Below, in pieces: positions 17,440-21,736 of a stretch of DNA of 64,000 nt (its first letter is position 1; each line of letters opens with the position of its first letter). Both the position numbers and the translations under genes were made by a program. The notes under the pieces are model-generated. The model made no database searches. It saw only the letters and a list, made by a program, of their open reading frames with translations, and was not told the origin of the DNA. The stretch is from an uncultured Bacteroidia bacterium (GTDB lineage Bacteria > Bacteroidota > Bacteroidia > Bacteroidales > Prolixibacteraceae), in NCBI GenBank assembly GCA_903923905.1, contig CAIXZH010000050.1, positions 1 to 64,000 on the forward strand. Reading direction: 5' to 3'.

Positions 17440-18276
17440 TTACATTTTTAAGATCAACCGGGGACTAAGTGGTAGTGACTTATAAAGAATCGTAGCATCC
17501 GACTTGGGGATAACAATCTCAATATGAGGCTTAACCGGTTCCCTGTTAAATTTAGTTAATGCCTGTATTGATCTTGAAATCTCATTTTTGTTATATTTCC
17601 TGCGGATATCCGAAATAAGCTTCAGGCCATCTGCGTCGGGTTGTTCGTTCTGTGAAATGATAAGTCTTAAGTTACGTTCAAATTCCATAACAACAAGAAC
17701 ATCACCTAGCTTTGCCTCCTTAGGCTCAGTGACCATCTTATTGGCTTCAAGGGTATCTTTAGGCGCAATTTTTTCAACATACGATATCTTGGGGATAGTA
17801 GCCTCGACATTTCGAAGTACAAATGGTTCAGCCATCCAACCCAACAAAGCATCCTTATTGTACAACTTAATTGAATTACTGATAGTTGCATGAATAATAT
17901 GACACTCGTGCAAAGGTATACCCTTGAGTTCCAGGATGGCCAGGTTATTAATCAGATCCAGGACAAGATAAGTGGAATCCTCTGTAGCAAGAATTAACCT
18001 GGACCGAAGCAAATTTTCCTTTCGCTTCAACTCAAGAAGTTTATTTTGGGAATCTTTACTATTACTGATTGTTTCAGTGGCAGTTGCAGTATCCTCACCG
18101 GGATTAATAATTTCATCCTTACCAACCTTTTTCTTTTCTTCAGAATAATTCCTGACTGTTGCTTTTGGCAGAGGGTTCTTTGTGAAAACAGGACGAATAA
18201 TGGTCGTAATAGCAACAAATATGAGACAAGCAGTTAATAACAGAGTAATGATCCAAAAGGCTATCTTATTTTTCAT
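17440..18276 (-). CDS. Unknown membrane-anchored protein in L,D-transpeptidase operon
   Basis: I do not recognise this 278-residue protein. One hydrophobic segment at about 6-30 would anchor it in the inner membrane with the rest in the periplasm. A Ser/Thr/Glu-rich linker (about 40-75) and a short helical stretch (about 80-95) precede a mixed alpha/beta part. It has no catalytic motif I can name. It is the last gene of a tight three-gene run with two L,D-transpeptidases (10-11 bp spacings), so a role in cell-wall crosslinking or its control is a reasonable guess from context only. Confidence 0.6.
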   Translation of the reverse strand: MKNKIAFWIITLLLTACLIFVAITTIIRPVFTKNPLPKATVRNYSEEKKKVGKDEIINPGEDTATATETISNSKDSQNKLLELKRKENLLRSRLILATEDSTYLVLDLINNLAILELKGIPLHECHIIHATISNSIKLYNKDALLGWMAEPFVLRNVEATIPKISYVEKIAPKDTLEANKMVTEPKEAKLGDVLVVMEFERNLRLIISQNEQPDADGLKLISDIRRKYNKNEISRSIQALTKFNREPVKPHIEIVIPKSDATILYKSLPLSPRLILKM

Positions 18277-18286
18277 TGTCGGATTT

Positions 18287-18982
18287 TTAATAAATATATA
18301 CTTTCGAACCTTTACTTAGTGTGTTGTAAACTACTTCGAGGTCTTTATCTCCAAGACGCACACAACCATGAGTCACGGGAAGTCCGAGGAATCGCTGATA
18401 AAGGGTGCCATGAATCATATATCCGTTTCCGATTTCCATAGCATAATCTCCTAATGTACTGTAATCTATCCGCTCCGCCGATCTGGCTGATGGAATTGGT
18501 AATCCATCCTCTATAAATGCCCAGTCAGGTTTTACCCATGGACGGTTCTGCTGCTTATTTCGGACGGTAAAGATTCCTTTAGGTGTCTTAAAGATAATTC
18601 GTTTATTTCCGGCAATTAATAATTCATTTTTACCTGTTGAACAAACTCCTGTCCGGACAGTATCCCCATCAACATTTCGCAGAGAAAAGCGGTTCTCTGT
18701 CGTGTTTACGACAATATAAGGCTTTACCGGCTTAAGTTTCTCAAGCTTGGTTTCAATCGAACTTATAGTACGGCCGGACCGAAGTACCATATTTTCGATG
18801 GCTTCGGGGGATTTCCCTTCAAAAAGAGATTTGCCGGCAAACAAGAATTTCACTTTAAAGGCACTATCCTGAAATACAGGCGTATAAAGAATCATCATTA
18901 CCGACAAACAGAATAGAAATACCGGAATGATCCAAATTAGGATACTGAGAAATGGCCGGCTTTTTTTTTCTTCGATTTCCAT
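18287..18982 (-). CDS. L,D-transpeptidase (YkuD domain), membrane-anchored
   Basis: 231 residues with one N-terminal membrane segment (about 12-34) and a C-terminal YkuD domain from about 88. The catalytic motif is THGCVRLGD with Cys at about 207, preceded by the conserved IHGT His at about 191. Family members form 3-3 peptidoglycan crosslinks or attach proteins to the wall. It sits between another L,D-transpeptidase and an unknown membrane protein with gaps of about ten bases. This catalytic domain is of the classical HGC-R type, unlike the more diverged upstream enzyme. Confidence 0.88.
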   Translation of the reverse strand: MEIEEKKSRPFLSILIWIIPVFLFCLSVMMILYTPVFQDSAFKVKFLFAGKSLFEGKSPEAIENMVLRSGRTISSIETKLEKLKPVKPYIVVNTTENRFSLRNVDGDTVRTGVCSTGKNELLIAGNKRIIFKTPKGIFTVRNKQQNRPWVKPDWAFIEDGLPIPSARSAERIDYSTLGDYAMEIGNGYMIHGTLYQRFLGLPVTHGCVRLGDKDLEVVYNTLSKGSKVYIY

Positions 18983-18993
18983 TATATTGATAT

Positions 18994-20109
18994 TTAGTTT
19001 AATAACTCCGAAAGTGATTTCATCGATCCTACGATAGTAACAGGGGTTCCAACTGCAGCACGGCTAAAAAGTTCATCTATCTCTGAATTTGAAAGTGCAA
19101 TACAACCGCTCGTCCAATCAGCCCCTTTGCCCCCTTCACCATGAATTTCGATCAAACCACCTATTCTGCTGTTTCTTGATATAATACCCTGCTTCTTTTT
19201 GCTGTTAAACATCGCATAATCCTCATCATTGGGATAATTAATTAGCATGGCTTTGTAGTATTTTGAATCTCCGTTACCTTTTTTCTTGATAATTCGGTAC
19301 ATCCCTTCCGGAGTTGCCTTATCGCCGGCAAAAAACTTATTCCCAATCCAGTTTCTGCCAAACTCGACATCGTATTCTTTACTTAGTTTCCCTTTATAAT
19401 AAAGGTATCCTTTATGTTGTATCTTGTCGACAATGAAAGCATATGCGTTATTCTGCGCAGACAATCGAATAGTAGCTGCAAACCAGCTTTGCCATTTTGA
19501 AAAGCTGCTGAAATATTCTTTTAAAAGTACATTGACCTCTTTATCAGCAATGCTGATCCTGATTTTGCCTTCATTGAGTTTTTTGGTAGCAAGCATGATA
19601 TCTCCACTACTGAAAGCATTTAGACCCTGTTCCAACGACAACTTCCCAAATTCATAATTTTTTCTCAGACTTACTTTTAACGGCAGGTGGATGAACAGAT
19701 CATGGTAGTTGTCTAATTTTTTCTTGAGCAATTCAGCTTCCTGCAAATATTTCATCTTTAATGAATTCTTATTTGCACCCGAAGAGGCATTGGCCTCCTC
19801 TGCTTTTAAAGTAGCAGTTAAGATGAGCCCCCTTGCCTTTGAATAATTTCTTTTGAAGAAAATTCGTTCATTTTGAATCTTCCATTCTATTAGAGCAGCC
19901 TGATATTTTCGTTCAGCAGCTCCATAGTACTCAGGCGAATACACATCGGCATTAGCTCTTTTTGCCTTCGCCAGTATTGATTGACATGATTTAAATTCGG
20001 TTAAAGGTGGCTTTTCCATGGTTAGGATGAGCACCATATAAACGATTACAAATATTGAAAGTAGTATTCCAAAACTAACAAATAATTTCTTTTTCCAGCC
20101 CAGTTTCAC
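18994..20109 (-). CDS. L,D-transpeptidase with N-terminal domain shared with adjacent lipoprotein
   Basis: 371 residues. It has a membrane anchor at about 9-30, then a helical domain (about 45-205), then a YkuD-like catalytic domain with EIHGEGGKGADWTSGCIALS (His about 323, Cys about 336). The first part of the helical domain (about 46-105) matches the neighbouring lipoprotein: A-D-x-Y-x-PE-(Y/F)-x-AA, then QN, then RNY at equal spacing. That suggests a duplicated periplasmic domain of DUF4398 type that may bind or sense the wall. It is first in an operon with 18287-18982 and 17440-18276. A TAAATTTG at 20115-20122 lies very close to the ATG and may be chance. Confidence 0.82.
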   Translation of the reverse strand: MKLGWKKKLFVSFGILLSIFVIVYMVLILTMEKPPLTEFKSCQSILAKAKRANADVYSPEYYGAAERKYQAALIEWKIQNERIFFKRNYSKARGLILTATLKAEEANASSGANKNSLKMKYLQEAELLKKKLDNYHDLFIHLPLKVSLRKNYEFGKLSLEQGLNAFSSGDIMLATKKLNEGKIRISIADKEVNVLLKEYFSSFSKWQSWFAATIRLSAQNNAYAFIVDKIQHKGYLYYKGKLSKEYDVEFGRNWIGNKFFAGDKATPEGMYRIIKKKGNGDSKYYKAMLINYPNDEDYAMFNSKKKQGIISRNSRIGGLIEIHGEGGKGADWTSGCIALSNSEIDELFSRAAVGTPVTIVGSMKSLSELLN

Positions 20110-20302
20110 TCTGACAAATTTAGATTAACACTTTTAAAATCAGATATCTCATTCGGGAAGAGCCCTCTTGATATTCATCTGCTATTTCTAATTATTGATT
20201 CGTGGGGCCTTTATTCAGAATCAGGTAAAATCCCCAAAATATATTCCGCGTAAGCGGTCAGCAAAGGAACTGAAAAATATGATTGATTAGGGAACAACCA
20301 TG

Positions 20303-20314
20303 GGGAAATTTCCC
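20303..20314. repeat. Perfect 12-bp palindrome GGGAAATTTCCC
   Basis: A perfect palindrome in the 270-bp gap between the lipoprotein terminator and the transpeptidase operon. It could be an operator for that operon; nothing else supports this. Confidence 0.3.
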
Positions 20315-20325
20315 AAATAAATTTC

Positions 20326-20357
20326 AAAAAGAACCCCCGGAAATTCATCCGAGGGTT
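20326..20357 (-). terminator. Rho-independent terminator of the lipoprotein gene
   Basis: On the minus strand AACCCTCGGA and TCCGGGGGTT (20348-20357 and 20332-20341) pair as a 10-bp stem with one G-U pair and a 6-base loop, followed by CTTTTT. It begins 24 bases after the lipoprotein stop. Confidence 0.75.
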
Positions 20358-20380
20358 AAAGTTTTTAAGCTTTCAAAGAT

Positions 20381-21004
20381 TTACTTTTTAGCTTTTTTGC
20401 CACCTTTACTTTTTGCTTTGTCAATAACTTCTGTCAATTCAGTGCTGATAGCTTTTGCTTTTTCAACAGCTGGTTTGATTTTGCCAGAAAGAGTTAAGAT
20501 GTCTTCGTTGTTTGTAACACCAGCAGTAACTTCAGTGCCAACAGTTTCAACAGCAGCAATTTCCTGTCCGATAGCTTCAACAGCAGCTTTGCCTTCTTTT
20601 CCCTTAGGAGCTTTTGCTAACAATTCCTTGTTTGCAGCGGTAATGGTACCAAGTTCAGTAAGAGCAGCAGTAACTTCAGCTTTTAAAGCGGCTTTCTTTG
20701 CAGTTGTTTCTTCAACAGCTTTAGCTGCAAGAGTGTTTACTGAAGCAAGAGTTGTCTTAGCAGCATCATAATTGCGGAATAACGCAAATTTTGAATTCTG
20801 CTCTTCAACAGCTGTAACAGCAGTTTTTAATGCTTCAGAAGCAGCATTGAAAGATTCAGGTACATAACGATCAGCACCTGCAGTTTTAGCAGCTTCGATA
20901 GCAACGTTTGCAGCATCAATTTCAGCTTGAGGAGCTTTGGCACAACTAGCCAATGTAACAACTAAAACACTAAAAGCAACCAGTTTTAATAATCCCTTTT
21001 TCAT
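20381..21004 (-). CDS. Alanine-rich helical lipoprotein (DUF4398-like)
   Basis: 207 residues with a type II signal ending LASC (Cys about 21), then an almost wholly helical, Ala/Lys/Glu-rich chain with a basic KSKGGKKAKK tail. An in-frame ATG 39 bases upstream (21043) exists, but only the ATG at 21002-21004 puts the signal peptide first. Residues about 35-100 match the N-terminal helical domain of the L,D-transpeptidase downstream on the same strand. The composition resembles small abundant envelope lipoproteins such as Lpp, and the basic tail could contact the wall; that is inference. It has its own terminator and so is likely a separate, strongly expressed unit. Confidence 0.75.
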   Translation of the reverse strand: MKKGLLKLVAFSVLVVTLASCAKAPQAEIDAANVAIEAAKTAGADRYVPESFNAASEALKTAVTAVEEQNSKFALFRNYDAAKTTLASVNTLAAKAVEETTAKKAALKAEVTAALTELGTITAANKELLAKAPKGKEGKAAVEAIGQEIAAVETVGTEVTAGVTNNEDILTLSGKIKPAVEKAKAISTELTEVIDKAKSKGGKKAKK

Positions 21005-21169: not shown

Positions 21170-21736
21170 ATGACAATAAAAAGTTCTGTTAAGGATTATT
21201 CTGATAAGGAAATCATCAGACTTATTAAGCAAGAACACAATACAAACCTTTTTGAAGTGCTTTACAAACGCTACTCAGATAAGGTTTACGACAAATGTTA
21301 TTCTTTGCTGAAAGATAAAACTCTTGCCCAGGAATTTGTACAGGACATATTTTGTAAAGTTTTCGAGCGTCTGACCGACTTTAGAGGGGAATCTAATTTC
21401 TCTACCTGGCTTTATGCGATTACTTATAATAATTGTATAGAGTACCTGCGTACAAAAAAGAAGATGAATTATCCTGACTGGAACAGCCAGCATGAACTAC
21501 CTGACGTAATCGATGAATTGAATGAAAAGGAGATCAATAGTGAACGTCTGATGAAAATCCTTGAATATATCCATCCTGAAGAAAAAGCTTTACTCACCAT
21601 GCATTATATAGATAATGTACCTATAGCCTATATTCAAACTGCATTAAAGATTAGTGAAAGTGCTACCAAAATGCGATTAAAACGGGCCCGGGACCGGGTA
21701 GCATTCTTGTACAAAGAACATTATAATCAAGATTAG
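21170..21736 (+). CDS. RNA polymerase sigma factor, ECF subfamily
   Basis: 188 residues with sigma region 2 (about 25-95; LFEVLYKRYSDKVYDKCYSLL, AQEFVQDIFCKVFERL, FSTWLYAITYNNCIEYLR) and region 4 (about 130-182; ISESATKMRLKRARDRV). No anti-sigma gene with a transmembrane segment follows. The next gene, 57 bp downstream, is a cytoplasmic-looking PepSY-like protein. Target promoters are unknown. Confidence 0.9.
   Translation: MTIKSSVKDYSDKEIIRLIKQEHNTNLFEVLYKRYSDKVYDKCYSLLKDKTLAQEFVQDIFCKVFERLTDFRGESNFSTWLYAITYNNCIEYLRTKKKMNYPDWNSQHELPDVIDELNEKEINSERLMKILEYIHPEEKALLTMHYIDNVPIAYIQTALKISESATKMRLKRARDRVAFLYKEHYNQD

Follow-up and report, generated by a model that had tools for sequence, protein, structure and literature searches.

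A lipoprotein and its neighbouring YkuD-family enzyme share a DUF4398-like helical bundle in a conserved gene cluster of Bacteroidota with a possible role in envelope tethering

Sequence comparison confirms that two adjacent genes of a Bacteroidota gene cluster, one encoding a lipoprotein and the other a membrane-anchored enzyme with a YkuD domain (LDT1), specify homologous helical regions of about 165-183 residues, which in the enzyme correspond to the whole ectodomain. Their origin by domain duplication is as good as certain. Together with a second YkuD enzyme (LDT2) and a membrane-anchored protein (P4), they form a very conserved cluster, complete in nearly every Bacteroidota locus examined, which suggests a putative outer-membrane-to-wall tethering system in bacteria devoid of the classical Braun lipoprotein.

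Organization and distribution of the gene cluster

The window, i.e., the whole stretch of 64,000 nucleotides analysed, carries the four genes on its minus strand in the order lipoprotein-LDT1-LDT2-P4, the lipoprotein gene coming first. The features considered here are listed below.

21170..21736, plus strand: divergent ECF sigma factor, candidate regulator
20381..21004, minus strand: lipoprotein gene (207 aa, ATG start), with a helical bundle at residues 26-205, divergent DUF4398 relative
20942-20944, minus strand: codon of the lipobox Cys21 of the lipoprotein
20768..20875, minus strand: shared motif of the lipoprotein, residues 44-79 (ADRYVPESFNAA ... QN ... RNY), from BLASTP and motif conservation
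20591..20611, minus strand: loop APKGKEG of the lipoprotein, residues 132-138, from invariant positions and the predicted model
20384..20419, minus strand: basic C-terminal tail of the lipoprotein, residues 196-207 (KAKSKGGKKAKK)
20332..20357, minus strand: terminator-like GC-rich hairpin followed by a T run, between the lipoprotein and LDT1 genes
18994-20109, minus strand: LDT1 (371 aa, GTG start), helical ectodomain and YkuD domain
19843..19950, minus strand: shared motif of LDT1, residues 54-89 (ADVYSPEYYGAA ... QN ... RNY), from BLASTP and motif conservation
19492..20010, minus strand: LDT1 ectodomain, residues 34-206, homologue of the lipoprotein by profile-profile comparison
19033..19443, minus strand: YkuD domain of LDT1, hydrolase type
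19102-19104, minus strand: codon of the catalytic Cys336 of LDT1
18287..18982, minus strand: LDT2, transmembrane segment and YkuD domain of the transpeptidase type (THGCVR, Arg209 invariant)
17440..18276, minus strand: P4, conserved membrane-anchored protein, fourth and last gene of the cluster

An initial annotation of this DNA had placed the first two open reading frames at 20381-21004 and 18994-20109 on the minus strand, describing the former product as a lipoprotein with a basic C-terminal tail and the latter as a membrane-anchored copy with a catalytic domain. Both descriptions hold, with a lipobox Cys21 and a basic segment at residues 196-207 in the lipoprotein, and a predicted transmembrane helix at residues 5-29, the putative inner-membrane anchor, preceding the YkuD domain in LDT1.

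Allowing for contig ends, the lipoprotein, LDT1 and LDT2 occurred together in 24/24 LDT1-bearing relatives, as they did in 7/7 remote loci from the same phylum. At least 465 encoded relatives emerged from a scan of GTDB species genomes. All of the best 80 loci contain LDT2, 79 contain the lipoprotein and 78 contain P4, the missing genes falling at contig ends; since these 80 loci were selected by their likeness to full-length LDT1 and partly overlap the first set, they do not represent a random sample. Carriers are mostly metagenome-assembled genomes (MAGs) of Bacteroidales or Marinilabiliales, with a few isolates from Maribellus (e.g., Maribellus sp. YY47, locus L153) and Mangrovibacterium (e.g., Mangrovibacterium lignilyticum BM_7, locus L163). 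The lipoprotein profile was detected in 12 of 393 genomes sampled evenly across the phylum, three of the 12 being weak partial matches only, so that the system is scattered in the phylum. The whole cluster was also found in one KSB1 MAG and one 'Deltaproteobacteria' MAG (L129, L164), which reflects either transfer between phyla or misbinning.

P4 matched no Pfam family, and the idea of a dead YkuD protein was not supported by comparison of its soluble part with LDT2 (11.9% in local and 0.5% in global mode); a weak resemblance to the end of YkuD domains was confined to the final 24 columns of P4 (68.5%). The ECF sigma factor gene lies beside the lipoprotein gene in most close relatives and in 35/80 of the best loci.

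A common helical bundle in the lipoprotein and LDT1

The motif given in the initial annotation as A-D-x-Y-x-PE-(Y/F)-x-AA is present in both proteins, with one position missing from that notation; its actual form is PE-x-[YF]-x-AA. It reads A54-D-V-Y57-S-P-E-Y-Y62-G-A64-A65, followed by Q79-N80 and R87-N-Y89, in the enzyme, and A44-D-R-Y47-V-P-E-S-F52-N-A54-A55, followed by Q69-N70 and R77-N-Y79, in the lipoprotein. The equal spacing of QN and RNY noted earlier is exact, with a constant offset of 10 residues throughout. Across 83 lipoproteins and 79 enzymes, conservation reached 99 and 95% for the Ala of ADxY, 100 and 94% for its Tyr, 100 and 100% for the [YF] of RNY, 51 and 100% for the Asn of QN, and 55 and 99% for the Arg of RNY, respectively.

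The homology extends well beyond this motif. BLASTP aligned the two proteins with an E-value of 9e-10. When 61 related whole genomes were searched with LDT1, the matches besides LDT1 itself were exclusively lipoproteins, and the lipoprotein retrieved itself and the LDT1 family, plus one weak partial match. Profile-profile comparison with hhalign, a check proposed in the initial annotation, was significant with alignments of 18 lipoprotein and 17 enzyme relatives (97.3%, E 1.7e-11, 165 columns), with 75 lipoproteins and 79 enzymes (98.8%, E 5.9e-17, 183 columns), and after removal of the signal peptide and the transmembrane segment (98.2%, E 3.2e-14). The common domain thus stands, its extent being not the 60 residues or so originally proposed but the whole ectodomain. 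Most of the signal comes from the first half of the domain (97.6%); the second half by itself is weak (37.7%), and its homology, when compared alone, is suggestive only. No internal duplication was seen inside the bundle (0.1% and 0.6%).

Both proteins are, on these comparisons, divergent and extended relatives of DUF4398 (PF14346) separated by one old duplication. The lipoprotein scored 24.6 bits and the enzyme 11.8 bits with the Pfam model, below its gathering score of 27.9, and matches were obtained for 9/18 lipoprotein relatives at E <=0.01 and for 6/18 enzyme relatives at E <=0.1. A profile built from 27 DUF4398 proteins of other Bacteroidota matched the two families at 96.0% (E 3.8e-9) and 97.0% (E 1.2e-10) and did not match LDT2 or P4 (0.2-0.4%). 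This combination of a sub-threshold Pfam score and a profile match designates DUF4398 proteins as distant relatives, the two families not being members by the Pfam rule. Convergence of two helical, low-complexity, Ala- and Lys-rich sequences, to which the weakness of the second half and weak matches of the lipoprotein to unrelated coiled coils might point, is extremely improbable, since the hhalign match was abolished by reversal of the lipoprotein profile (0.1%) and by 40 column shuffles (maximum 0.3%), the neighbouring LDT2 (0.5%) and P4 (0.3%) profiles used as internal controls did not match the lipoprotein profile, and each family matches DUF4398 sequences drawn from other proteins.

Structure prediction, also suggested at the outset, agrees with this picture. 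The AlphaFold2 models were confident (mean pLDDT 89.5 for the enzyme and 87.7 for the lipoprotein), with predicted helices at residues 36-51, 54-57, 59-81, 90-139, 146-167 and 171-219 in the enzyme, before the YkuD domain, and at residues 26-41, 44-47, 49-70, 80-131, 136-164 and 169-205 in the lipoprotein. As judged from these predicted boundaries, the helix order is one-for-one the same in both proteins. A Foldseek search of the PDB returned no significant relative of the bundle, the best fold, the N-domain of Borrelia BB0323, being too weak to retain (E 0.45, probability 0.92, TM 0.42/0.51), and the lipoprotein sequence had no relation to solved structures (best E 0.18).

In a phylogenetic tree, a single branch (SH-aLRT 98) sets every lipoprotein copy apart from every enzyme copy, which implies one duplication older than these lineages; this was a quick tree with long enzyme branches, and its finer branching is unsure. 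With the matching predicted helix patterns, it bears out the domain duplication put forward in the initial annotation.

An apparently abundant lipoprotein with an invariant lysine

The lipoprotein resembles a structural protein. Codon adaptation of its gene (0.80) ranks first among the 45 genes of the window (mean 0.717, sd 0.023) and lies 4.2 sd above a composition-matched expectation; on the composition-matched scale, LDT1 ranks 45 and LDT2 42 of 45. A terminator-like site follows the lipoprotein gene in 48/79 loci, compared with 1% of mononucleotide shuffles, and follows LDT1 in 1/79 loci. Codon adaptation and terminator together indicate that the lipoprotein is apparently abundant and in excess over the enzyme. 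A scan for sigma-70-type promoters was uninformative (4 found, 3.4 expected).

Among the 83 lipoproteins, P133, G135 and K136 of the APKGKEG loop are invariant, and K136, located in the turn behind the longest helix of the AlphaFold2 model, is the sole invariant lysine. The C-terminus is more variable. A terminal Lys or Arg occurs in 67/83 relatives, and a Lys within the last three residues likewise in 67/83. Remote members without a C-terminal Lys end in GQGS, GTRS, AGR, VRS or RRS, and in one group a KARIKF or RARIRF ending ([KR]ARI[KR]F) takes the place of a Lys/Arg run, with a strictly kept terminal Phe (L119, L120, L136, L140, L148, L160). Given these endings, attachment through a C-terminal Lys in the manner of Lpp cannot be general in this family. 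The lipoprotein gave no match to the Lpp model (PF04728), and none was found over the cut-off anywhere in the genome.

Two YkuD enzymes with opposite catalytic signatures

Both enzymes are clear YkuD proteins (PF03734, cut-off 23.4), with 67.1 bits for LDT1 and 74.0 bits for LDT2, and the catalytic Cys is kept in all sequences of each family. They differ at the second residue after this Cys. In LDT1, Arg is replaced by Ala338, with the signature GC[VI]A in 79/79 sequences, a change that marks DpaA-like hydrolases, in which the Arg is lost and Ala or Asn is found instead (PMC8263019); this Arg-less signature is common to LD-carboxypeptidases too. An invariant Lys258 is the equivalent of the substrate-binding Lys83 of DpaA. 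Among E. coli proteins, DpaA was the best match (44.8 bits, against 27.4 for LdtA), the top PDB match was 8IKR, i.e., DpaA, and Foldseek placed first Bdellovibrio Bd1075, an LD-carboxypeptidase (PMC10653827). LDT1 groups with the hydrolases, DpaA being nearest and the LD-carboxypeptidases Pgp2, Csd6 and Bd1075 next, as a separate clade sister to DpaA (support 90/87). Lacking the transpeptidase Arg and grouping with hydrolases, LDT1 is likelier to release than to attach, and it may act as an amidase or as a carboxypeptidase.

LDT1 is not the DpaA orthologue, as judged from the tree and from the presence of a closer DpaA relative elsewhere in the same genome; with the curated DpaA model NF040599, LDT1 scored 32.5 bits, short of the cut-off of 365. 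That relative, a second Arg-less YkuD gene on contig C33 (319-549, minus strand; L004), reached 111.7 bits with E. coli DpaA, against at most 36.5. The genome thus encodes a true DpaA relative although Lpp is absent over the cut-off.

LDT2, the next gene after LDT1, displays the THGC[VI]R signature, which conforms to the SHGC/THGC-x-R pattern, in 79/79 sequences and is the candidate attaching enzyme. It matched E. coli LdtB (43.8 bits), LdtE (40.3), LdtA (40.0) and LdtC (38.8) far better than DpaA (6.0). The best tree did not unite LDT2 with LdtA-C and LdtE in one clade, a grouping with an AU p-value of 0.117.

A putative tethering module and its alternatives

The reading that we tentatively prefer is that of an Lpp-like module working like the enterobacterial Lpp, LdtABC and DpaA set, in which LDT2 would attach the lipoprotein and LDT1 would release it, the linkage being presumed covalent. 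The lipoprotein would be an abundant helical bundle, presumably anchored in the outer membrane, and LDT2 would couple one of its lysines, either Lys136 or one in the Lys-rich tail, to the meso-diaminopimelate of peptidoglycan. From the inner membrane, LDT1 would detach the lipoprotein or trim acceptor peptides. LDT1 and the lipoprotein derive from duplication of one DUF4398-like bundle, which in LDT1 is combined with a YkuD domain; this shared bundle would direct LDT1 either to the wall site used by the lipoprotein or to the lipoprotein. This model is preferred because it would explain why one Lys never varies, why the lipoprotein seems to be abundant and why two opposite LDTs are obligatorily paired, with Ala in 79/79 LDT1 and Arg in 79/79 LDT2 sequences, K136 in 83/83 lipoproteins and a Lys/Arg-rich C-terminus; release of a wall-linked lipoprotein has a precedent in DpaA (PMC8263019). 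The earlier proposal of an Lpp-like substrate or tether is thus plausible, being backed by LDT2, the hydrolase type of LDT1, codon adaptation, the basic tail and Lys136, except that the enzyme named for it, LDT1, lacks the transpeptidase Arg, the candidate for attachment being LDT2. Counting against the tether are the C-terminal ends of the remote members and of the [KR]ARI[KR]F group, and the facts that LDT1 is not a DpaA orthologue and that carboxypeptidases share its Arg-less signature. Moreover, a simple up-down arrangement of the helices would place Lys136 and the tail on the side of the lipid anchor, remote from the wall, a position that the predicted helix order makes likely for Lys136. 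A stronger version, in which Bacteroidota possess a covalent tether of the outer membrane that is new, self-contained and not related to Lpp, with LDT2 attaching an abundant DUF4398-like lipoprotein through the invariant loop Lys136 and LDT1 releasing it while bearing the fold of its substrate as a targeting module, is doubtful.

Almost as likely as the covalent tether, and its main rival, is a non-covalent scaffold. The bundle, for which the initial annotation put forward a still hypothetical wall- or partner-binding role, would then be a wall-binding or self-associating domain through which the abundant lipoprotein links the outer membrane to the wall and, by contact between the bundles, recruits or activates LDT1, LDT1 and LDT2 only remodelling peptidoglycan by LD-carboxypeptidation and 3-3 cross-links. 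Both proteins retain the QN...[RK][ND][YF] loop, which is what a binding site common to the two would predict, the C-terminal Lys is not universal, and the relatives of the bundle point the same way. Canonical DUF4398 genes in other Bacteroidota (L178-L207) occur mostly as tandem pairs encoding a short lipoprotein (about 127 aa) and a longer one (about 290 aa) whose C-terminus is of the OmpA type, assigned by eye from GHTD...RR motifs, and in Leptospira LipL71 combines DUF4398 with LysM (PMC5406399); both arrangements associate the family with wall binders of the non-covalent kind. By itself, however, a scaffold leaves unexplained the invariant Lys136 of the 83 lipoproteins, the obligatory second LDT of the transpeptidase type and the Lys-rich tail of most members.

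It is rather unlikely that the lipoprotein serves as a regulator of LDT1, for instance as a competitive decoy for the site of the LDT1 bundle, so that wall trimming tracks lipoprotein supply under the ECF sigma factor. The common fold and motif, the apparent excess of lipoprotein over enzyme and the divergent sigma factor at part of the loci would suit such a role, but it has no need for the invariant Lys136 loop, in place of which the enzyme copy has LPL, and the sigma factor is not a constant neighbour.

Comparison with known systems and significance

As in the E. coli system of Lpp, LdtA/B/C and DpaA, the cluster combines a lipoprotein whose C-terminus is basic with two YkuD enzymes, a transpeptidase that bears the Arg and a second enzyme that lacks it. 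In contrast to E. coli, the genes form one cluster, the lipoprotein has about 187 aa in its mature form and is not homologous to Lpp, the enzyme lacking the Arg has the fold of the lipoprotein, the C-terminal Lys is not universal, and the bond is putative. In E. coli MG1655 (L175), lpp and ldtE adjoin. LDT1 resembles the amidase DpaA (LdtF, YafK), Pgp2, Csd6 and Bd1075 in its Arg-less Cys+2 position and its Lys83 equivalent, and differs from DpaA by its membrane-anchored bundle. For tethering at a Lys that is not C-terminal, Coxiella burnetii LimB offers a precedent, in attachment position alone: it is tethered to the wall through Lys21 (PMC12729407), and the LDT responsible is not known (PMC11841132). 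The pairs of DUF4398 genes share with the present locus a tandem arrangement of a free lipoprotein and a copy fused to a wall-directed domain; here, unlike in the OmpA-type pairs, the copy is fused to a YkuD enzyme and has a predicted inner-membrane location, and the bundle, with four helices, is longer. With its OmpA-type and LysM partners, the family is thus repeatedly paired with wall-directed domains, the YkuD enzyme being the partner here.

DpaA-like enzymes were reported by Winkle et al. in Bacteroidetes and other Lpp-less bacteria, where they presumably act on other substrates (PMC8263019). The literature searched, mostly papers outside subscription, contained no account of a Bacteroidota lipoprotein attached covalently to the wall, and earlier work may exist. 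The present cluster unites in one locus a candidate substrate, a candidate attaching enzyme and a candidate releasing enzyme, and its presence in some cultured strains makes the tether question directly testable. It also adds a YkuD fusion to the relatives of DUF4398, a family with almost no literature, and suggests how an enzyme may arise when a catalytic domain is fused to a duplicate of the protein with which it probably acts.
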